Below are positions 22,928 through 39,847 of a stretch of 39,847 bases of DNA, in pieces. Origin of the DNA: Porphyromonas sp. COT-239 OH1446 (GTDB taxonomy: Bacteria > Bacteroidota > Bacteroidia > Bacteroidales > Porphyromonadaceae); the NCBI RefSeq assembly GCF_000768875.1, contig NZ_JRAO01000002.1, positions 1 to 39,847 of the forward strand. The letters run 5' to 3'. Under the pieces are notes generated by a model that had not been told where the DNA came from, ran no database searches, and saw only the letters and a list, made by a program, of their open reading frames with translations. Made by a program: the position numbers and the translations under genes. The first letter of the stretch is position 1; every line of letters begins with the position of its first letter.

Positions 22928-23066
22928 CTATTCATACCTCAACAGAGATCCTATGTTAGACCTTACTCGAGAGCCTACTTGAGTCTCGGCTGAGATCCTA
23001 CTTAGACCTCGATGGAGATCCTATTTGAGCCTCGGTCGAGAGCCTATCGGGAGAGAAGCAGAGCTC
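22928..23066 (-). repeat. Degenerate 23-bp tandem repeat, locus 3 (inverted)
   Basis: Six units of 23, 24, 23, 23, 23 and 23 bp in the opposite orientation to the other loci. On the plus strand they read CTACTTGAG/AGAC...GAGATC. Strongest units are 22975-22997, 22998-23020 and 23021-23043. Confidence 0.8.
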
Positions 23067-30552: not shown

Positions 30553-30671
30553 CAGATAATATTATTCGATCGTGAAGCCACTATCCCTTGAAGCTCCACA
30601 CAAACCATCGGGATAATCCCAGGAGCCCCCCCTCTAGAGCCCCCGAGACAACGAGCTAAGAGCTCTCGATA

Positions 30672-30833
30672 GCCTCTCGACCGAGATCTAAGTAAGCCCT
30701 CCATCGAGACCCAAATAGGATCGCAACCGAGACTCAAGTAGGAGCTCCATCGAGGTCTAAGTAGGATCGCCATCGAGACTCAAGTAGGCTCTCTATCGAG
30801 GTCTAAGTAAGATCGCAACAGAGCTCCCAACAG
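30672..30833 (+). repeat. Degenerate 23-bp tandem repeat, locus 4
   Basis: Seven units, the first of 24 bp and the next six of exactly 23 bp. The best preserved of the four loci. Two unit types alternate: one like GATCGCAACCGAGACTCAAG+TAG and one like GAGCTCCATCGAGGTCTAAG+TAG, so the true period may be a 46-bp dimer. Confidence 0.85.
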
Positions 30834-30922: not shown

Positions 30923-31025
30923 AAAAACTAACCCCACGGGCTGGTATTAGCCCGTGGGGTTATACGATTGAGGCCATAGAGATGCCCTAACACATGTTTC
31001 AACTCACCCCGATCTGACAAACGGG
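30923..31025 (-). ncRNA. crRNA-mimic small RNA (CreR/CreA-like), predicted cas autorepressor
   Basis: A leftward unit of about 100 nt with four parts. (1) A -7 box TATCTTTG (31030-31037). (2) A pseudo-repeat ending GTGAGTTGAAAC (31007-30996), 11 of 12 identical to the 3' end of the array repeat (GTGAATTGAAAC), preceded by a short CCCG...CGGG stem. (3) A 33-nt pseudo-spacer (30995-30963) starting ATGTGTTAGGGCAT; array spacers are 34-36 nt. (4) A 14-bp terminator hairpin plus TTTTT in place of a second repeat. The product would have the shape of a mature crRNA: handle, guide, 3' hairpin. The first 14 guide bases match 12 of 14 in the cas promoter region beside a TTC. CreA and CreR RNAs of this kind are known from other type I systems; function here is inferred. 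Confidence 0.75.
30929..30962 (-). terminator. Intrinsic terminator of the crRNA-mimic RNA
   Basis: A 14-bp perfect stem (30929-30942 with 30949-30962, core AACCCCACGGGCT) with a 6-nt loop, followed on the minus strand by G and then TTTTT (30927-30923). This is the best-formed intrinsic terminator in the window, and it points leftward, away from cas3, ending no protein gene. Confidence 0.85.
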
Positions 31026-31029
31026 TACA

Positions 31030-31037
31030 CAAAGATA
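31030..31037 (-). promoter_or_regulatory. -7 box of the crRNA-mimic RNA
   Basis: TATCTTTG on the minus strand. Transcription would start about 31022-31025, at the first base pairs of the pseudo-repeat stem, so almost nothing precedes it. Confidence 0.6.
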
Positions 31038-31095: not shown

Positions 31096-31131
31096 TCGAT
31101 CCAGCAGCAAAATTATCCCCTATCACATGAA
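31096..31131 (-). promoter_or_regulatory. Predicted Cascade binding site in the cas promoter
   Basis: On the minus strand TTC (31131-31129) is followed by ATGTGATAGGGGAT (31128-31115). The pseudo-spacer reads ATGTGTTAGGGCAT, so positions 1-5, 7-11 and 13-14 match and only 6 and 12 differ. Beyond 14 the match breaks down (18, 20 and 21 agree by chance). The seed covers the region about 17-30 bp upstream of the cas -7 box, where the -33 element would be. A short match should allow binding and repression without Cas3-driven cleavage. Confidence 0.7.
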
Positions 31132-31144
31132 TAAAAAAAATGAT

Positions 31145-31152
31145 TACATTTG
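31145..31152 (+). promoter_or_regulatory. -7 box of the cas operon promoter
   Basis: TACATTTG fits TAnnTTTG and precedes the 46-codon ORF and cas3. The expected start, near 31159, would leave a 5' leader of about 60 nt before the ORF at 31220. No good -33 TTTG is visible. Confidence 0.6.
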
Positions 31153-31219
31153 CAAGCAAAAGGATAGAGGGGGGAAAAAGTAAGTTTGAACCCAGCTAGA
31201 TTAATCCCGAGGATAAGAA

Positions 31220-31360
31220 ATGGCAACGAAAACCTACATAATAGAGCTCCTGTATAAGGAAGGCAAAGGCGCGACCTATAAATACGAACGAGTAGTTCTT
31301 TGGACATTATGTGATTCTGGCCGTATCTTCGTTGAGAGAGACATGGACAAGGCTTGCTAA
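31220..31360 (+). CDS. Small protein at the head of the cas operon (46 aa)
   Basis: A short ORF beginning MATKTYIIELLYKEGKG and ending ERDMDKAC, between the cas promoter and cas3 (21 bp gap). I recognise no family. Beta-strand-like residues alternate (KTYIIELLY, YKYERVVLW, GRIFVER), it is lightly charged and it has no membrane segment. It is too short to be a known Cas protein. Because it is the first reading frame under the promoter that the crRNA mimic is predicted to repress, it could be a leader peptide, a regulator or a CreT-like toxin. Expression is not proven, and a chance ORF of this length is possible. Confidence 0.45.
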   Translation: MATKTYIIELLYKEGKGATYKYERVVLWTLCDSGRIFVERDMDKAC

Positions 31361-31381: not shown

Positions 31382-33688
31382 ATGAGCACCAAAGATCACC
31401 TAGCCCACATCAGCGACGACAAGCGAGAGCAGTCGATGAGCGACCATGCAGAGGCCGTAGCAACGCTATGCGCACGATTTATCTCCGAGAGCTATAGCCC
31501 TCGACTTACTCCTCTAGGATGGCTAGTGGGTCGCCTCCATGATGCAGGGAAGGCCCAGCCAAGCTTCCAACGATACCTCAGAGCCGTGGCCCTCGAGGGG
31601 GAGAGAGCCCCCAAAGCTCCTCATAGTGCCGCTGGGGCTCTGCTGTGCTTCAGAGGTCTTGCGGATCTATACCCCATGACTGCTCAAGCCCTAGCCTACT
31701 GCATTGATGGGCATCACAGAGGCCTCAGAGGATACAAAGACCTCGATCAAGTGCTAGAGGACGGAGAAACTCTAATGAGGCTACACGACACACTAGAGCA
31801 CGATCGACAGGTTAGCACTCTGCTAGAGCATTGGGCAGAGGAACATGGCCACAAGATCGAGAGGCATCTCGGCAAGATGGATAGCGAGGACAGACAGCTA
31901 TTTGTGCGGATACTATTCTCCTGTCTCACGGATGCGGACTTCCTCGATACAGAGGCTTTCATGGATAGGGAGCGACGGCATCTGCGCCTCGAGATCTCAA
32001 GGCAGTACAGCACTATGACAGAGCTCCGAGAGCTCCTCAGACAGCATACCGATCGCTTTCAGGCCACAAGCTCGATCAATCAGAAGCGGAAGCTCTTCTT
32101 GGATGCCTGCCGAGAGCACGGGAGGCAGTGTAACAAGGGCTTCTACAGCCTCCTCTTACCTACTGGTGGGGGCAAGACCCTATCCTCCATGGCCTGGGCC
32201 CTGGAGCATGCCATACAACACCAGTCGCCCCGCATCATCTACGTCATCCCCTATACCTCGATCATCACACAGACGGCACAAACGTTTAGGGAGATATTCG
32301 GCGAGCATAATATCCTCGAGCACCACTCCGACATCAGATTCGAGCGTGATGCAGAGATCGATGAGCGACTAGATAGGACTAGGATCCTCGCCGAGAACTG
32401 GGATGCACCGATCATCATCACGACCAACGTACAGTTCTTCGAGTCCCTCTTCGCCCACAAGACCTCTCGATGCCGTAAGCTACACCATATCTGCCAAGCG
32501 ACCTTGGTATTCGATGAGGTACAGATCTTCCCCACAGGCTTCCTGCACCCTATGCTCAGAGCACTCAATAGCCTCTACTACTCCTTCGGGACGCAAACAC
32601 TCTTTTGCTCAGCTACCCTACCCAACTTCGACGAGGTCGTCGGCAGCGAATATGCGCACAAAAAGAACTTCTTCGCCCTTGAGGAGAAGGTGCAGCCCAT
32701 CATCCCATACGATCGGGAGCACTTCGCCCCCTTCGATCGAGTGGACTACCAAATTGAGCCAGTACAGTATAGTATGGAGGGGCTTGCCGAGGCCCTCGCT
32801 CAGCATCCCTCTGCCCTCTGCATCGTGAACACTCGTAGGGAAGCCGCTTGCCTCTACCGGAGTCTCATGGGGATAGGGCTTCCCCCAGATAGGGTCATCC
32901 ATCTCTCTCGCATGATGTGCTCGGCACACATCCAGGATCAGATCACCAGCATCAAGGATCGCCTAGCTCAGGGCGAGCCTACGATCATCGTCAGCACACA
33001 GCTCATCGAGGCAGGGGTCGATATTGACCTACCTGTTGTCTACCGAGCGTTCGCAGGGCTAGACTCGATCGTCCAGGCAGGGGGCAGATGTAACCGAGAG
33101 GGGCGAGGCCTGGAGCGAGGGCGAATGATCTGCTTCACCCTCACAGAGGGTTCGAGGGCTATGGGAGAGCTCCACGATGCACAGCAGGCATGTAGGCAGC
33201 TCCTGAGAACGTGGGCAGGGGATCAAGACCTAACCTCGCCCGAGATCATATCCTCCTACTACAAGATCTTCTACACCGCAGTGTCTCAGTTCGACATCAA
33301 AGGCATCGAGAACCTCCTTTGGCATAGTTGCAATAGTGAGAGCTGGCGATTTGATTTTGAGCAAGCTAGCCAGGAGTTTATGATGATAGACGAAAGAAAT
33401 AAAATAGATATATTTACACCATACAAGAAGGAGGGGGCTAATCTCCTCGGCCAGATCAAATGCGGGAAGCGTCCCCTAGATCGCTCCGCCCTGCGACTGC
33501 TACAGCGGTACAGAGTGGGGGTCTATGAGAAGGACTTCGAGACACTCTGCCAGGCAGGACGTCTCGAGCGGGTGGTCATTGACCATCGCTCTGAGAGGGC
33601 CATCTATCTACTCACACCAGAGGGCTACGACCTCGCCCTGGGGACTAAAACAGACAATCCATTCATAGATGGGCTACTTGCCGTATAG
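31382..33688 (+). CDS. cas3: Cas3 helicase-nuclease (type I-C)
   Basis: 768 residues. An N-terminal HD nuclease domain (about 15-220; His53-Asp54 in GRLHDAGKAQPSF, then HSAAG and DGHHRGL) is joined to a superfamily 2 helicase. Walker A is TGGGKT with Lys265; the Walker B box is DEVQ (378-381), as in many I-C and I-B Cas3. Motif III is FCSATLP and motif VI is QAGGRCNREGRG. The protein unwinds and degrades target DNA after being recruited by the effector complex. All key motifs are present, so it should be active. It is the first cas gene, 70 bp before cas5c; that gap is A-rich and carries no terminator. Confidence 0.96.
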   Translation: MSTKDHLAHISDDKREQSMSDHAEAVATLCARFISESYSPRLTPLGWLVGRLHDAGKAQPSFQRYLRAVALEGERAPKAPHSAAGALLCFRGLADLYPMTAQALAYCIDGHHRGLRGYKDLDQVLEDGETLMRLHDTLEHDRQVSTLLEHWAEEHGHKIERHLGKMDSEDRQLFVRILFSCLTDADFLDTEAFMDRERRHLRLEISRQYSTMTELRELLRQHTDRFQATSSINQKRKLFLDACREHGRQCNKGFYSLLLPTGGGKTLSSMAWALEHAIQHQSPRIIYVIPYTSIITQTAQTFREIFGEHNILEHHSDIRFERDAEIDERLDRTRILAENWDAPIIITTNVQFFESLFAHKTSRCRKLHHICQATLVFDEVQIFPTGFLHPMLRALNSLYYSFGTQTLFCSATLPNFDEVVGSEYAHKKNFFALEEKVQPIIPYDREHFAPFDRVDYQIEPVQYSMEGLAEALAQHPSALCIVNTRREAACLYRSLMGIGLPPDRVIHLSRMMCSAHIQDQITSIKDRLAQGEPTIIVSTQLIEAGVDIDLPVVYRAFAGLDSIVQAGGRCNREGRGLERGRMICFTLTEGSRAMGELHDAQQACRQLLRTWAGDQDLTSPEIISSYYKIFYTAVSQFDIKGIENLLWHSCNSESWRFDFEQASQEFMMIDERNKIDIFTPYKKEGANLLGQIKCGKRPLDRSALRLLQRYRVGVYEKDFETLCQAGRLERVVIDHRSERAIYLLTPEGYDLALGTKTDNPFIDGLLAV

Positions 33689-33758
33689 CCCCACATATAG
33701 AACTATTGGGAGAAATAAACTAGAAACAAAGGACACAAACACAAATAAATCAATATCT

Positions 33759-34433
33759 ATGGACAGAAAAACTTATTGTCTAGAGATCCGAGGAGACTTC
33801 GCCTGCTTCACTCGACCAGAGCTCAAGGTCGAGCGGGTCTCTTACGACGTCATCACCCCCTCGGCAGCTCGTAACATCTTCCAAGCCATCTTTTGGAAAC
33901 CAGCCATACAATGGCACGTCCGACGCATCGAGGTGCTTCATCCGATCAAGAAATGCTCGATCCGACGCAATGAGGTCGGCAAGACCATGGGGAAGGACTC
34001 CAAACAAATCCTCATAGAAGGCAACCGACAGCAGCGCACTGCCTACCTCCTCCAGGACGTGGCCTATCGGATCTTCGCCGAGATGGAGTTCATCCCGCTA
34101 GAGCAACGGCCTCTAGAGCAGCAGGTGGGGGCAGAGCACCCCGAGGCTGAGATCCCTCGCAAGTATCAAGAGATATTCGAGCGCAGAGCCTCTATGGGCC
34201 AGTGTCATACTCAACCTTATCTAGGGTGTAGAGAGTTCTCCTGCTCCTTTGAGCTCGTCCCCAACGCTCCAGAGGGGCTTGGGATCGAGGAGAGTAGAGA
34301 CCTCGGGATCATGCTCTTCGACATGGACTTCGAGGCGAATAAGTCTTGTCCCCCTGCCCTCTTCTTCCATGCAACCATGGAGCATGGGGTCATTATGGTA
34401 CCATCTAAAGACAGCCAAGAGATACTCCGATGA
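33759..34433 (+). CDS. cas5c: Cas5c (Cas5d) crRNA-processing subunit
   Basis: 224 residues from the ATG at 33759. The open frame reaches back to 33669 within cas3, but the family start is near MDRKTYCLEIRGDFACFTRP. In type I-C this subunit both cuts pre-crRNA at the base of the repeat hairpin and caps the 5' handle. Seen: KVERVSYDVITPSAARNIFQ, FWKPAIQW, RRNEVG, QRTAYLLQDVAYRI, ERRASMGQC and PYLGCREF. In my alignment the conserved Lys-His pair before FxRR is Lys135-Tyr136 here, and the KGQCFH motif is MGQCHT. The stop overlaps the cas8c start (ATGA). Confidence 0.94.
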   Translation: MDRKTYCLEIRGDFACFTRPELKVERVSYDVITPSAARNIFQAIFWKPAIQWHVRRIEVLHPIKKCSIRRNEVGKTMGKDSKQILIEGNRQQRTAYLLQDVAYRIFAEMEFIPLEQRPLEQQVGAEHPEAEIPRKYQEIFERRASMGQCHTQPYLGCREFSCSFELVPNAPEGLGIEESRDLGIMLFDMDFEANKSCPPALFFHATMEHGVIMVPSKDSQEILR

Positions 34434-36325
34434 TACTACAAGCTCTCAACGAATATTACCAGGCGATGAATGCCTTAGGCAAGGTCGCCCCATTCGGGAT
34501 GGAGTGGAAGAGCCTTCCCTTCATCATCGTCATCAGCCCAGAGGGTGAATACGTAGACTTCGTAGACACTAGGGACAAGGGAGAGAACAAACTAGGACGC
34601 AGATACCTAGTGGCCAAGACCAAGGGCAGAAGTGGATCTAAGAGCTATGAGACCTCCCAAGTCCTTTGGGATCACTCAGGCTATGTGTTGGGTACCCCGA
34701 CAGAGCAGGATGCGAACAAGGTCGAGATGGCACCCAAGCAGCATGAGGCGTTCAAACGGGAGCTAAAAGAGCTTTGCGAGACCTTCCCCGAGAATAAAGA
34801 GTTCAGAGCCATCCAACTATTCTACGACAAGGGGCAGCATCTAGCCCTACCGCAAGAGGCCATAGAGGCAATAAGCAAAAAGGTGGGGGCGAATATCAGC
34901 TTCAGACTGAGCACAGAGAACGATCTCAATCGTTTGATCGCCTCTCATCTAGATATTGCCAGCTATGTAGGAGGCCCATCATCCACAAGCTCCAATAGTG
35001 ATCCTATAGGCCGCTGCCTCGTAACAGGAGAGAGAGCCCCTATAGCCCGATTACATGGTGGAGTCTCGCTCTTTGGAGCCCAACCAGGGGCCAATCTCAT
35101 CAGCTTTCAGAAAGGCTCCGGATACGACTCTTACGGCAAAGAGCAAGGCCTCAATGCCCCCATCTCTGTGGCCTCCTCCGACGCCATATCGACAGCCCTC
35201 AACCACCTCCTCCTGGCTGATAGCAATACAAATTATCGTATTGGAGATACGACCTTTGTGTTTTGGAGTACACTGCACCAAGACAGCCTACTCGAATGCT
35301 ACAAAAAGGCCACCTTCAACGGCATAGAAACAAGCCGAAACGATGCAGACGATGAGGAGGACGACGAGGATACCCCTAAGCGTCCACGTAGGAAGGCCAG
35401 CTCTAAGCCCCAAGGACCAGACCCAGAGCTAGAGGCTCACAAGGTACTCAGTGCCCTGAAGAGCATACGTGGGAATAAGGGGGCTCATATCGACCGGAAG
35501 AGCCAAGATCAGTTCTATATCCTGGGGCTTACCCCAAATGCAAAAAGAATATCGGTCAAGCTTTGGCAGCAAGGTAGCGTCCAAGAGATCGTCTCCAACA
35601 CGCTGAAGCATCTCGAGGACATGAATATTGTCCGATTCGGAGGCCTTGTAGACAACGAACATCCACGTCTACGATCCTTATACACAGTCATGAAGGCCGT
35701 GTCTTCATCCAACAAGTCAGACAAGTGGTCTGCTCTCATGATCCAAGGCATAGTCGAGAGTATTGTCAAGGGACGTCCCTACCCCGAGGCATTACAACTC
35801 GCTTGCCTAGAGCGCATCCTGCATGACCACAGCACCTCCAGCCCTGTGTCAGAGCTAAGGGCTGCCATCCTCAAAGCATATATCAACCGCAAATACAACT
35901 ACGAACGTATCACCATGGCACTAGACAAGACCAACGCAGAGCCTGCCTATTTGGCTGGAAGACTTTTTGCTGTCCTAGAGGGCATTCAGAAAGCAGCTAT
36001 CAAACAAGCCAATGCGACCATCACCGACAGGTATTATCGCACGGCATCGAGTACCCCTGGCATTATCTTTGGCCGATTGACCCAACTCAGCGTACATCAC
36101 CTCTCCAAGATCGACAAGGAAAAGCCTGGGCTTGCATATCTATTCCGCAAGGAGATAGAGCAGATTTATAGCCTTTTGCCAGGGGGCACAGCTCGCTTCC
36201 CCAAGTATCTTAACCCTGATGAACAGAGCATATTTGCCGCAGGCTATTACCATCAGCGTAATACTTCGCTCAAGAATGAGAAAGGAGACCTTCAAGAGCA
36301 AGAAATGTTAGAGACAGCCAACTAA
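34430..36325 (+). CDS. cas8c: Cas8c (Csd1) large subunit
   Basis: 631 residues, matching the family start (MILQALNEYYQAMNA) and SLPFIIVISPEGEYVDFVDTR. It is the large subunit of the type I-C effector complex, which reads the PAM (TTC in studied systems) and positions the target. The variable acidic stretch near residues 300-320 (DADDEEDDEDTPKRPRRKA) is a linker. The C-terminal helical part, from about residue 496, equals the small subunit Cas11c, probably also made separately. Translation is coupled to cas5c by ATGA overlap. Confidence 0.95.
   Translation: MILQALNEYYQAMNALGKVAPFGMEWKSLPFIIVISPEGEYVDFVDTRDKGENKLGRRYLVAKTKGRSGSKSYETSQVLWDHSGYVLGTPTEQDANKVEMAPKQHEAFKRELKELCETFPENKEFRAIQLFYDKGQHLALPQEAIEAISKKVGANISFRLSTENDLNRLIASHLDIASYVGGPSSTSSNSDPIGRCLVTGERAPIARLHGGVSLFGAQPGANLISFQKGSGYDSYGKEQGLNAPISVASSDAISTALNHLLLADSNTNYRIGDTTFVFWSTLHQDSLLECYKKATFNGIETSRNDADDEEDDEDTPKRPRRKASSKPQGPDPELEAHKVLSALKSIRGNKGAHIDRKSQDQFYILGLTPNAKRISVKLWQQGSVQEIVSNTLKHLEDMNIVRFGGLVDNEHPRLRSLYTVMKAVSSSNKSDKWSALMIQGIVESIVKGRPYPEALQLACLERILHDHSTSSPVSELRAAILKAYINRKYNYERITMALDKTNAEPAYLAGRLFAVLEGIQKAAIKQANATITDRYYRTASSTPGIIFGRLTQLSVHHLSKIDKEKPGLAYLFRKEIEQIYSLLPGGTARFPKYLNPDEQSIFAAGYYHQRNTSLKNEKGDLQEQEMLETAN
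35915..36325 (+). CDS. cas11c: Putative Cas11c small subunit from internal start in cas8c
   Basis: In type I-C the small subunit is translated from an internal start in cas8c (established for Desulfovibrio and others). Here an in-frame ATG at codon 496 (35915-35917) begins MALDKTNAEPAYLAGRLFAV, the place and motif where the Desulfovibrio Cas11c starts as I recall. It would be 136 residues of alpha-helix. No Shine-Dalgarno is visible, but those are rare in Bacteroidetes. Confidence 0.5.
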   Translation: MALDKTNAEPAYLAGRLFAVLEGIQKAAIKQANATITDRYYRTASSTPGIIFGRLTQLSVHHLSKIDKEKPGLAYLFRKEIEQIYSLLPGGTARFPKYLNPDEQSIFAAGYYHQRNTSLKNEKGDLQEQEMLETAN

Positions 36326-36365: not shown

Positions 36366-37238
36366 ATGGAATCACCTATCATTAGCAACCGCTACGACTT
36401 CCTCTACTTCTTCGATGTGCAGGATGGCAACCCCAACGGAGATCCCGATGCCGGCAACCTACCACGCCTAGACTTCGAGACAGGCCAGGGATTGGTTACG
36501 GATGTATGCCTCAAGCGCAAGGTTCGCAACTATATCGAACTAGTCCGCGAGGAGCTCGCCCCAGAAGATAGAGAGTTCTACAAGATCTTCATTCGAGAGA
36601 AGGCGATACTGAACCAAACCATCGCTGCCGAATACGATGCGGCTGGAGGCAAAAGTATTGAGGATGCCCGAGCACGTATGTGTGCCCATTACTACGATGT
36701 GCGCACCTTCGGAGCAGTAATGTCAACAGGAGAGAAAGGGAAAAATGCTGGACAGGTACGAGGGGCAATCCAATTGACCTTTGCTCGCTCCATAGATCAA
36801 GTATTCTCCAGCGAGCATACTATCACTCGTATGGCCGTTGCCACTGAAAAAGAGGCGAAGGATCAAAGCGGAGATAATCGGACTATGGGCCGCAAAGCAA
36901 CCATTCCCTACGGTCTCTATCGCACACAGGGCTTCATATCAGCTGCTTTGGCAAAGGACACCAAGTTCTCAGAGCAAGATTTAGAGCTATTTTGGAGGGC
37001 TCTCCAAAATATGTTCGACGTGGATCGCTCCGCAGCACGAGGCCTGATGGCTGCACGTAAGTTGATCGTATTCAAGCATCAAAGCAAACTCGGCAACGCC
37101 CCTGCACACAAGCTCTTCGACCTGATCAAAGTCGAGCGAAAAGCCCCAGACCAAGCTCCCCGCTCGTTCGACGACTACATCATCAAGATTGACAGGGAAG
37201 GACTACCCCAAGGCGTAGAGATCCTGGAGCTCATATAG
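36366..37238 (+). CDS. cas7: Cas7 (Csd2) backbone subunit
   Basis: 290 residues, the repeated backbone subunit that coats the guide segment of crRNA. The start [29 protein letters not shown] and [15 protein letters not shown] is diagnostic of Csd2. Further motifs are [20 protein letters not shown] (thumb region) and [14 protein letters not shown]. Backbone subunits of this type are thought to kink the guide every sixth base, which fits the mismatch pattern of the predicted promoter target. It lies 40 bp after cas8c. Confidence 0.96.
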
Positions 37239-37253
37239 CTTAGATAGTACTCT

Positions 37254-37937
37254 ATGGAAACCAAGAGATATACAGAGGATGAGTTGCTATTCCTCTCCGA
37301 CATACAACATTATACCTTCTGTCCTAGACAATGGTATCTGATGTGCATGGAACAAATGTGGGAGGATAATCACCTCACTGTCGAAGGAGCTCTACTACAC
37401 AGCAAAGTACACGAACCTGAGCAGAGTGAACGCCGAGGAGACGTTATCACACTCCGATCTGTACCCTTGGCTTCCTATCAACTAGGTCTTTATGGGTTCT
37501 CCGATGCGGTGGAGCTAGTCCCCGCATCGGACCCCATAGGCCCAGCCTTCGTACACCCTCAGTATCCTGGCCGCTGGGATGCGACCCCAGTCGAATACAA
37601 AAGAGGGAAACCTAAGCGGCACAATGCAGACCGCCTCCAATTGTGCGCCCAGGCTATCTGCCTTGAGGAGACTTACGGCATTCATATCCCACGAGGTTAC
37701 TTATTCTATGGGGAAATAAAGCACCGAGAGGCGGTATTGCTTGACGAAGCCTTGAGGCTAGAGCTTTTTGATATAACAGAGCAGATGCATCGGGCATACG
37801 AAAGTAAACGTCCTATTGCAGCCGTCTACTCGTCTAAGTGTCGCTCCTGCTCACTAGTAAACCAATGCCTTCCTCGAGCCAATCAATTCGGCTCCGCCTC
37901 TGAATATCTGCTACGAAACAACTTGTTTAATCCATGA
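37254..37937 (+). CDS. cas4: Cas4 adaptation nuclease
   Basis: 227 residues of the RecB-like exonuclease family with a [4Fe-4S] cluster. Cluster cysteines are Cys23 (FCPRQWYL), Cys196, Cys199 and Cys205 (SKCRSCSLVNQC). Nuclease residues are in VEYKRGKPKRHNADRLQLCAQA. It trims prespacers and checks the PAM together with Cas1-Cas2. It overlaps cas1 by ATGA. Confidence 0.95.
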   Translation: METKRYTEDELLFLSDIQHYTFCPRQWYLMCMEQMWEDNHLTVEGALLHSKVHEPEQSERRGDVITLRSVPLASYQLGLYGFSDAVELVPASDPIGPAFVHPQYPGRWDATPVEYKRGKPKRHNADRLQLCAQAICLEETYGIHIPRGYLFYGEIKHREAVLLDEALRLELFDITEQMHRAYESKRPIAAVYSSKCRSCSLVNQCLPRANQFGSASEYLLRNNLFNP

Positions 37938-38962
37938 GACGTCTACTCAATACCCTATACATCCTCAGTCCCAACGCATATCTGAGCAAAAATGGAGAGA
38001 ACCTCATCGTGCGTATCGAACAAGATGAGGCTATGCGCTTGCCCATCCACAATATCGAGGGGGTAATTTCTTTCTCCCGTATGGGAGCATCACCAGGGGC
38101 CATGCACCTATGCGTGCAGAATGGGATTAAGCTAACTTTCCTATCCCCTACTGGCCGGTATATTGGGAGCTTAGAGGGAGGGATCAAAGGAAATGTATTA
38201 CTGCGTAGAACCCAATATCGTCTCGCAGACGATAATGTATGTTCTGCCCATCTTGCCTCCGTTTTTATTGCAGGAAAGATCGCCAACCATAGGGCCGTAC
38301 TAGCTCGCTTTTGCCGAGACCATCAACCCGAGGAGGGTGTGGAGAAGCAAATCAAGGAGATCATTCTTCAGCTCAAGGAAGAGCAAAAGAAACTGGCCAA
38401 TGTGGCAGATCGAATGACTGTCATGGGGATAGAGGGGAATGCCGCAAAGTTATATTTCTCCGTTTTTAATCACCTCATCCTCAACGCAGACTTTCCCTTC
38501 TCTGGAAGGCACAAGAGGCCACCCAAGGATATGGTCAATGCCCTCTTATCTTTCTTCTATACCTTACTCGCTCACGATGTACGTGCTGCACTGGAGAGTG
38601 TTGGTCTAGACCCTTTTGTAGGGTTCTTACATGTAGATCGACCTGGCAGGGCTGGCCTTGCCTTAGACATGATGGAGGAGCTGAGGGCCTATATTGTCGA
38701 TCGCTTTGTACTATCTGTCATCAATAAGCGACAAATTAGCTCCAAGGACTTTCTGACCCAAGGAGAGAATGGCATACTGCTTAAAGAAGATACCCGTAAG
38801 GCTCTAATCAAGTTATGGCAGCAACGCAAGAGAGACGAACTGACCCATCCTTTCCTCAGAGAAAAAATACCTGTAGGCTTGATCCCCTATGTGCAGGCTC
38901 AGCTGCTGGCACGACATTTGAGAGGGGATCTAGACGAGTATCCTGTATTTCTCATTCAATAG
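37934..38962 (+). CDS. cas1: Cas1 integrase (type I-C)
   Basis: 342 residues, the metal-dependent integrase that inserts spacers at the leader end. Active-site residues in my count are Glu167 (IEGNAAKLYF), His233 (FLHVDRPGRAG) and Asp245 with Glu248. The start RRLLNTLYILSPNAYLSKNG and the GRHKRPPKDMVNALLSF segment are typical of I-C. The complete set of catalytic residues suggests a working adaptation module. Confidence 0.96.
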   Translation: MRRLLNTLYILSPNAYLSKNGENLIVRIEQDEAMRLPIHNIEGVISFSRMGASPGAMHLCVQNGIKLTFLSPTGRYIGSLEGGIKGNVLLRRTQYRLADDNVCSAHLASVFIAGKIANHRAVLARFCRDHQPEEGVEKQIKEIILQLKEEQKKLANVADRMTVMGIEGNAAKLYFSVFNHLILNADFPFSGRHKRPPKDMVNALLSFFYTLLAHDVRAALESVGLDPFVGFLHVDRPGRAGLALDMMEELRAYIVDRFVLSVINKRQISSKDFLTQGENGILLKEDTRKALIKLWQQRKRDELTHPFLREKIPVGLIPYVQAQLLARHLRGDLDEYPVFLIQ

Positions 38963-38966
38963 TGTT

Positions 38967-39257
38967 ATGTATCTGCTTATTACCTATGATGTCTGTACTT
39001 CCAGCCCATCTGGAGCGAAACGACTGAGGCAGGTCGCACGCATATGTCAAAATTATGGCCAAAGGGTGCAGAATTCTGTCTTTGAATGCCTCGTAGAGCC
39101 AGCTCAGTTTGTCTCCTTACAGCACCAGTTACTCTCCGTCATTGATAAAGAGTTAGATAGCCTGCGGATATACCACCTAGGGAATAATTACAAGAGGCAG
39201 ATATTCTGCTTTGGGAAAGTAACCTCATTTGAGATAGAGGGAGAGCTAATCATCTAG
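38967..39257 (+). CDS. cas2: Cas2
   Basis: 96 residues of ferredoxin-like fold forming the core of the Cas1-Cas2 integrase. The start MYLLITYDVCTSS has the conserved Asp8. RVQNSVFECLVEPAQF and the C-terminal YHLGNNY are typical. It starts 4 bp after cas1. Confidence 0.96.
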   Translation: MYLLITYDVCTSSPSGAKRLRQVARICQNYGQRVQNSVFECLVEPAQFVSLQHQLLSVIDKELDSLRIYHLGNNYKRQIFCFGKVTSFEIEGELII

Positions 39258-39485: not shown

Positions 39486-39847
39486 GTCGCATCCCTCTCG
39501 GGATGCGTGAATTGAAACCTAGATCACTTGCTGATTGATTACACCCCAAAGGTAGTCGCATCCCTCTCGGGATGCGTGAATTGAAACCGTATGCTCACCT
39601 CGGGGGCTCACCTCGAGGAGTGTCGCATCCCTCTCGGGATGCGTGAATTGAAACCTCGGGGGCTACGTAGCGGAAAAATCCAAGAATATCGTCGCATCCC
39701 TCTCGGGATGCGTGAATTGAAACCTTAGTCCCATTAAGCCTACGGATTTCGTTGATAGTCGCATCCCTCTCGGGATGCGTGAATTGAAACCCACCGCCAT
39801 AGCAGGAGCGATATACCTATATAAGTCGCATCCCTCTCGGGATGCGT
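39486..39847 (+). CRISPR. Type I-C CRISPR array (truncated by the window end)
   Basis: Repeats of 33 nt begin at 39486, 39555, 39622, 39691, 39758 and 39825 (the last cut after 23 nt). The repeat starts GTCGCATCCCTCTCGGG and ends GTGAATTGAAAC. An 8-bp hairpin CGCATCCC/GGGATGCG with a TCTC loop precedes the 11-nt handle, as expected for Cas5c processing. All visible copies are identical. The five spacers are 36, 34, 36, 34 and 34 nt. Each spacer starts with C, so the unit may be read as a 34-nt repeat. The repeat strand, leader side and cas gene direction all agree with rightward transcription. Confidence 0.97.

Follow-up and report, generated by a model that had tools for sequence, protein, structure and literature searches.

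In this study, we analysed a stretch of 39,847 nucleotides from Porphyromonas sp. COT-239 OH1446 (contig NZ_JRAO01000002.1, positions 1 to 39,847; called the window here), and found beside its type I-C cas operon a single degenerate CRISPR repeat, followed by a guide that matches, next to a TTC protospacer-adjacent motif (PAM), a site in the putative cas promoter. We consider it very likely that this element encodes a CreR-type RNA that represses the cas genes of its own type I-C system and that is made up of one repeat and an intrinsic terminator. With such an RNA, the CRISPR system would probably turn itself down when it is abundant. If this is true, RNA-guided self-control of CRISPR systems extends to subtype I-C.

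The cas operon and its array

The type I-C set in the window is complete, with cas3-cas5c-cas8c-cas7-cas4-cas1-cas2 and an array, all on the plus strand. The gene for cas3, with HD and helicase domains (NCBIfam TIGR01596 and TIGR01587), lies at 31382..33688 and is followed by cas5c (33669..34433; TIGR01876), cas8c (34430..36325; TIGR01863), cas7, also named csd2 (36366..37238; TIGR02589), cas4 (37254..37937; TIGR00372), cas1c (37934..38962; TIGR03640) and cas2 (38967..39257; TIGR01573). The CRISPR array occupies 39486..39847, where six GTCGCATCCCTCTCGGGATGCGTGAATTGAAAC repeats are seen, the last of them cut by the contig end. All five readable spacers (at 39519, 39588, 39655, 39724 and 39791) start with a C straight after GAAAC, and the effective end of the repeat in this array may be GAAACC.

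Anatomy of the guide RNA element

On the minus strand, about 380 bp before cas3, lies a lone element consisting of a stem-loop, then TGAGTTGAAAC and then ATGTGTTAGGGCAT. It is a degenerate CRISPR repeat present in a single copy, located outside the array and adjoining the cas operon, which is one of the sequence features of CreR. The hairpin of this pseudo-repeat (CCCG...CGGG; 31007..31028, minus strand) was identified by folding and from the hairpins that relatives have at the equivalent place, and it is followed by the 5' handle TGAGTTGAAAC (30996..31006, minus strand), which is identical at 10 of 11 positions to the array handle TGAATTGAAAC. The pseudo-spacer extends over 30963..30995 on the same strand, its first 14 nt (30995-30982) being the guide ATGTGTTAGGGCAT, and folding places after it an intrinsic terminator-like hairpin of 14 bp and then GTTTTTG (30929..30962, minus strand). 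The 104-nt RNA including this terminator-like hairpin has a folding z of -3.26, and the sole Rfam match was to the terminator hairpin, below threshold (21.1 bits with 41.5 required). Hairpins before the handle vary among loci, those of L021 and L022, the nearest relatives of the window, being mostly alike; folding was seen in all seven loci compared (L043, L033, L021, L022, L140, L101 and the window), and the hairpin of the window, at -6.4 kcal/mol and taken alone, folds no better than shuffles, as do those of L021 and L101.

The Bacteroidota -7 promoter consensus is TAnnTTTG, and a scan for it gave TATCTTTG at 31030..31037 on the minus strand as a candidate box for the guide RNA. The handle follows 23 nt further on from the box at 31037, a spacing that would allow the RNA to start at the pseudo-repeat. 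Boxes with one mismatch (TACTTTCG) and alike in spacing were seen by eye in L021 and L022. The window also holds degenerate 23-nt tandem repeats at 30669-30829 and 22956-23053, inverted counterparts of each other about 7.6 kb apart.

Predicted pairing with the putative cas promoter

The plus strand at 31115-31131 reads ATCCCCTATCACATGAA, and its reverse complement is TTC followed by ATGTGATAGGGGAT. The PAM occupies 31129..31131 and the protospacer-like target ATGTGATAGGGGAT 31115..31128, both on the minus strand and upstream of the -7-like box of the cas operon. The guide ATGTGTTAGGGCAT pairs with this site at positions 1-5, 7-11, 13 and 14 and differs from it at 6 and 12 only; the original prediction, which had claimed exactly this pattern of mismatches beside TTC, was correct to the base on rechecking. 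It had also placed the site 17-30 bp upstream of the cas -7 box, which agrees with our count from the first base of the box at 31145. This box, TACATTTG(C), was found by consensus scan at 31145..31152 on the plus strand, and the PAM ends 13 nt ahead of TACATTTGC at 31145; a clear -33 element was not seen by eye in the cas promoter of the window. A second -7-like box, TAAGTTTG, at 31181..31188 on the plus strand is a possible alternative promoter and might drive cas3 instead. Partial complementarity to the cas promoter beside a PAM, a further sequence feature of CreR, is present here, with the promoter boxes assigned by consensus only.

TTC had also been claimed as a type I-C PAM. The available portion of PMC8482600 gives TTC and TTT among the type I-C PAMs; its table assigns CCN to Porphyromonas I-C, however, which is a point against the prediction. 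A search of viral contigs with pieces of 24 nt from three array spacers of the window, out of five, gave no exact match. The array spacers were also considered as the regulator and rejected, since at most 8 of the 12 counted positions matched in any of the five readable ones.

As a test of chance, the upstream region of 452 nt was resampled 20,000 times with a first-order Markov model; a site next to TTC never matched at 12 of the 12 counted positions, and one matched at 11. In the genome of 1,961,776 bases the pattern TTCATGTGNTAGGG is found at one place; however, a reversed-pattern control is likewise single, so that uniqueness by itself is weak evidence and the strong evidence is comparative.

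Guides and targets in other type I-C loci

A DNA similarity search of the region against 26 genomes of the genus found no homologue elsewhere, the matches beyond its own genome being two short ones in G022, and relatives were therefore collected via their cas genes. A search of genome contigs with Cas3 as a single protein gave no confirmed stretch, and a search with a Cas7 alignment was used; of the 594 stretches that it confirmed, the 80 best were retained. Regions were taken from 31 of 51 matching genomes (two others were already in the set) and, in a second search, from 40 of 64. Four duplicates or near-duplicates (L062, L064, L125 and L156) were removed before counting, loci without a detectable cas3 were left out (11, 6 and 3 in successive sets), and so were loci with at most 250 nt before cas3 in the cas3-upstream scans of 90, 113 and 34 loci.

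When the guides of 17 family loci were compared with their own cas3-upstream regions, five scored at least 21 (the window, L021, L022, L033 and L043), and the highest scores among 272 control cross-pairings were a single 21 and a single 20, which both came from pairings between the sister loci L021 and L022. The other 12 of the 17 loci had no clear guide and target pair in this set, and the trait is patchy (5/17). Scores of at least 21 were reached by 7 of 90 loci in a smaller earlier set, compared with 5 of 2,500 cross-pairings, and by 7 of 113 loci in the larger one, compared with 9 of 12,656. The pairs beyond the family set are those of L140, from a Spirochaetia bacterium, and L101, from a Desulfobacula metagenome-assembled genome (MAG). 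In 34 further loci that belong to the same phylum as L101, the cas3-upstream scan had no such score (the best was 19), and two of these loci had matches in the gap between cas3 and cas5 instead.

The original prediction had set in advance, as a check able to refute it, whether seed and target are conserved together in relatives. They are: five further loci (L021, L022, L033, L043 and L140) have guides that match their own cas3-upstream region with pairing at 1-5 and 7-11, and their seed sequences are mostly different. Joint conservation of this kind is not among the published criteria for CreR and was added in this study. That the arrangement is kept with differing but matching sequences in some relatives argues against a chance match. 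Between L021 and L022, guide position 11 is A in one and G in the other and the target has changed likewise, a compensatory change, whereas position 12 is T in one guide and C in the other and the target is unchanged. The loci L042 and L043 are 91% and 86% identical in their flanks, yet L042 has neither the RNA segment nor the target at that place. In addition, a 14-nt block, GGGTGAGTTGAAAC, is common to the window, L021 and L022, while the window has a guide unlike those of the other two.

A wide scan covered, in each of 157 type I-C loci, the region between 1.5 kb upstream and 3.6 kb downstream of the cas3 start, and took as elements those outside arrays with a handle of at least 9/11 and a hairpin, of which there were 205 in 116 loci. 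A match had to include all ten seed positions (1-5 and 7-11) and to lie beside a PAM within 700 nt. The full seed was found for 12 of the 205 elements, with TTC as the PAM in nine and TTT in three; in the control, in which each element was given 60 cross-pairings and any of seven PAMs was accepted, no more than 6 of 12,300 cross-pairings reached ten positions, three of them with TTC, and the pairing is thus beyond chance. It might still be argued that such elements are decayed CRISPR remnants, whose match is accidental or vestigial and has no present function, since handle and hairpin are degenerate and the hairpin of the window is weak. This excess of exact seeds, the compensatory change, the joint absence in L042 and the strong terminator all stand against that explanation, which we regard as extremely improbable.

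Half of the 12 pairs lie upstream of cas3 (the window, L021, L022, L033, L043 and L140) and half in the cas3-cas5 gap (L083, L119, L127, L137, L198 and L216), the hosts of the latter including an Enterobacterales MAG (L083), Delftia tsuruhatensis (L119), a Nitrospira MAG (L127) and a Gallionella MAG (L137). Mismatches fall on position 12 in 11 of the 12 pairs and on position 6 in 8, which fits bases that Cascade does not read. The 12 pairs cannot all be counted as independent, since the first seven letters of the L033 and L140 seeds are identical and L021 and L022 are sister loci. We considered, and dropped as a general rule, a constant T at position 6 of the guide combined with a constant A at position 6 of the target: it held for the first seven pairs, but it holds for 6 of the 12 overall and fails in the cas3-cas5 class. 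By position, the combination was seen in 7/7 cases when the six cas3-upstream pairs are taken with L101, and in 0/6 of the cas3-cas5 pairs. L066 was also noticed to have a solitary repeat, some 9 kb downstream from where cas3 starts and so beyond the region covered in the 157 loci; its guide fits a site next to TTA at -8 of cas3, pairing at positions 1-5, 7-11 and 13-15 and not at 6 and 12.

Position of the targets relative to promoters

In L021 and L022, as judged by eye, a TAnnTTTGC box lies about 30 nt away from the start of cas3, and target and PAM reach to within 9 nt of this box on its upstream side; the TTTGC form of the box is common to the window, L021, L022 and L043. The target of L043, likewise by eye, lies just past its box, and that of L140 just past TTGACA-17-TATATT, a sigma-70-like promoter by eye; in L033 and L140 the consensus scan gave no exact TAnnTTTG box facing cas3. 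Target sites placed in this way, that of the window included, are where bound Cascade should block initiation.

In the window, a divergent -7-like box, TAATTTTG(C), was found by the consensus scan at 31108..31115 on the minus strand, touching the target. The RNA could on this basis control itself or another divergent transcript through the box at 31115, with repression of cas being secondary. The contact between the TAATTTTGC box on the minus strand and the target would fit this, as would L101, where the target lies, by eye, directly upstream of the TTGACA-17-TATAGT promoter of the RNA itself and not of that of cas3. However, the RNA of the window has a closer box at 31037, and the targets of L021, L022, L043 and L140 are at promoter-like sequence facing cas3, and we think it very improbable that divergent control is the main function. 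L101, which has 9 of 10 seed pairs, was rejected as a member of the cas3-upstream group and kept apart in view of its target site. Its guide is at -352 and its target at -425 from the cas3 start, with a moderately hydrophobic 43-aa ORF after them, and the target placement suggests self-control of the guide RNA.

Small ORFs and the possibility of addiction

Between the target promoter and cas3, the window has a leader ORF of 46 aa (MATKTYIIELL...; 31220..31360, plus strand). Its place invites comparison with CreTA, in that the guide RNA could silence this ORF and the loss of Cascade would release a product that harms the cell. Precedents for such addiction in types I-B and I-F are found in the available parts of PMC8501985 and PMC10097628, and several of the elements in the cas3-cas5 gap have a small ORF by the target, some of them with a hydrophobic stretch (L119 and L137; also the weaker elements L092 and, outside that class, L101). 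However, the 46-aa ORF is not strongly hydrophobic (maximum 15-residue mean 1.05), it has no Pfam match and no convincing relative among the fetched loci (one match of 23 residues, E 0.083), and the nearest relatives L021 and L022 have a like RNA but no such ORF. An addiction function for the window element is in our opinion improbable. As the cas genes lie downstream of the ORF and in the same direction, addiction and control of cas may coexist. No complete ORF of at least 18 aa with an ATG or GTG start was found from the target to cas3 in L021, L022, L033, L043 or L140, which makes cas3, or the cas operon, the likely regulated unit in these five loci.

The guides in the cas3-cas5 gap (L119, L137, L127, L216, L198 and L083, and more weakly L092) lie roughly between +2200 and +2790, counted from where cas3 starts, and their targets are nearby, several of them, as judged by eye, next to promoter-like sequence. 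In some of these loci a small ORF separates the target from cas5, and in L119, L137 and L092 this ORF includes a hydrophobic stretch; none was found in L083. It is possible that these elements are type I-C addiction modules. A more speculative view, which we put forward only tentatively, is that type I-C systems have repeatedly built single-repeat guides whose new seeds are directed at the locus that carries them, in a cas3-upstream form that throttles the operon and a cas3-cas5 form with small, sometimes membrane-type ORFs that is maybe an addiction module; the window may combine both, the loss of Cascade raising the cas genes together with a guard product.

Proposed mechanism of autorepression

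Type I-C repeats are cleaved by Cas5c and not by Cas6. Under the preferred reading of a cas-autorepressing RNA, the minus strand at about 31028-30925 would be expressed as a small crRNA-like RNA, whose degenerate type I-C repeat, with its hairpin and 11-nt handle, would allow processing by Cas5c and adoption into Cascade, and whose intrinsic terminator would take the place of a second repeat. The loaded Cascade would bind the cas promoter at 31131-31115 via TTC and seed pairs 1-5 and 7-11, with a hybrid presumably too short for a full R-loop or cleavage by Cas3, and would block transcription of cas3-cas5c-cas8c-cas7-cas4-cas1-cas2. Free Cascade would in this way lower its own synthesis, which would rise when Cascade is occupied or disabled by crRNAs or anti-CRISPRs, a predicted form of sensing. 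The 1-5/7-11 rule is shared with the I-B CreA and predicts binding without full unwinding or a Cas3 cut, hence repression of cas. The 12 natural guide and target pairs have mostly different seeds and all obey this rule, and the set makes it testable how few pairs suffice for Cascade binding without cutting and whether cas expression goes up under attack by anti-CRISPRs in Bacteroidota.

Comparison with known systems

The idea is already known in kind from CreR, whose sequence features are found here and whose functional features are predicted. The CreR abstract of Liu et al. from 2023 reportedly names subtypes I-B, I-E and V-A; the present case differs from these in being type I-C, with one repeat and a terminator, although I-C cases in the primary paper are possible. 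In the titles and abstract openings of the literature searched we found no type I-C CreR, and other or subscription papers may hold one. The available parts of PMC12737573 and PMC12948488 both describe CreR for type I and type V-A, and the former sets out the theory that crRNAs compete for Cascade and that anti-CRISPRs relieve repression. Like CreR in that account (PMC12737573), the window RNA is crRNA-like and has limited complementarity to the cas promoter, and autorepression with a response to crRNA load and anti-CRISPRs is predicted for it.

The I-B CreA, as far as the accessible text of PMC8501985 goes, represses its promoter together with Cascade at a site with a TTC PAM, and mutations showed that each of the ten pairs at 1-5 and 7-11 is essential and that 6 and 12 are free. 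The window shares with it TTC, the pairing at 1-5 and 7-11 with 6 and 12 free, a degenerate repeat and a promoter target. In contrast, most creA genes in the same excerpt have two flanking repeats and guard a toxic RNA, whereas the window has one repeat and the cas genes are the main downstream genes. Likewise, the portion of PMC10097628 on the I-F CreA of Acinetobacter describes a mini-CRISPR that lies between cas genes and pairs only in part, positions 6, 11 and 18 of CreA being unpaired, but it differs in a CC PAM, 17 of 20 pairs, no canonical seed, a small-RNA toxin and two repeats. Racr, according to the available part of PMC10651486, is likewise a solitary repeat that mimics CRISPR repeats; it is, however, a phage-borne anti-CRISPR, whereas the element described here is encoded by the host, is linked to cas and carries a guide that matches the cas promoter.
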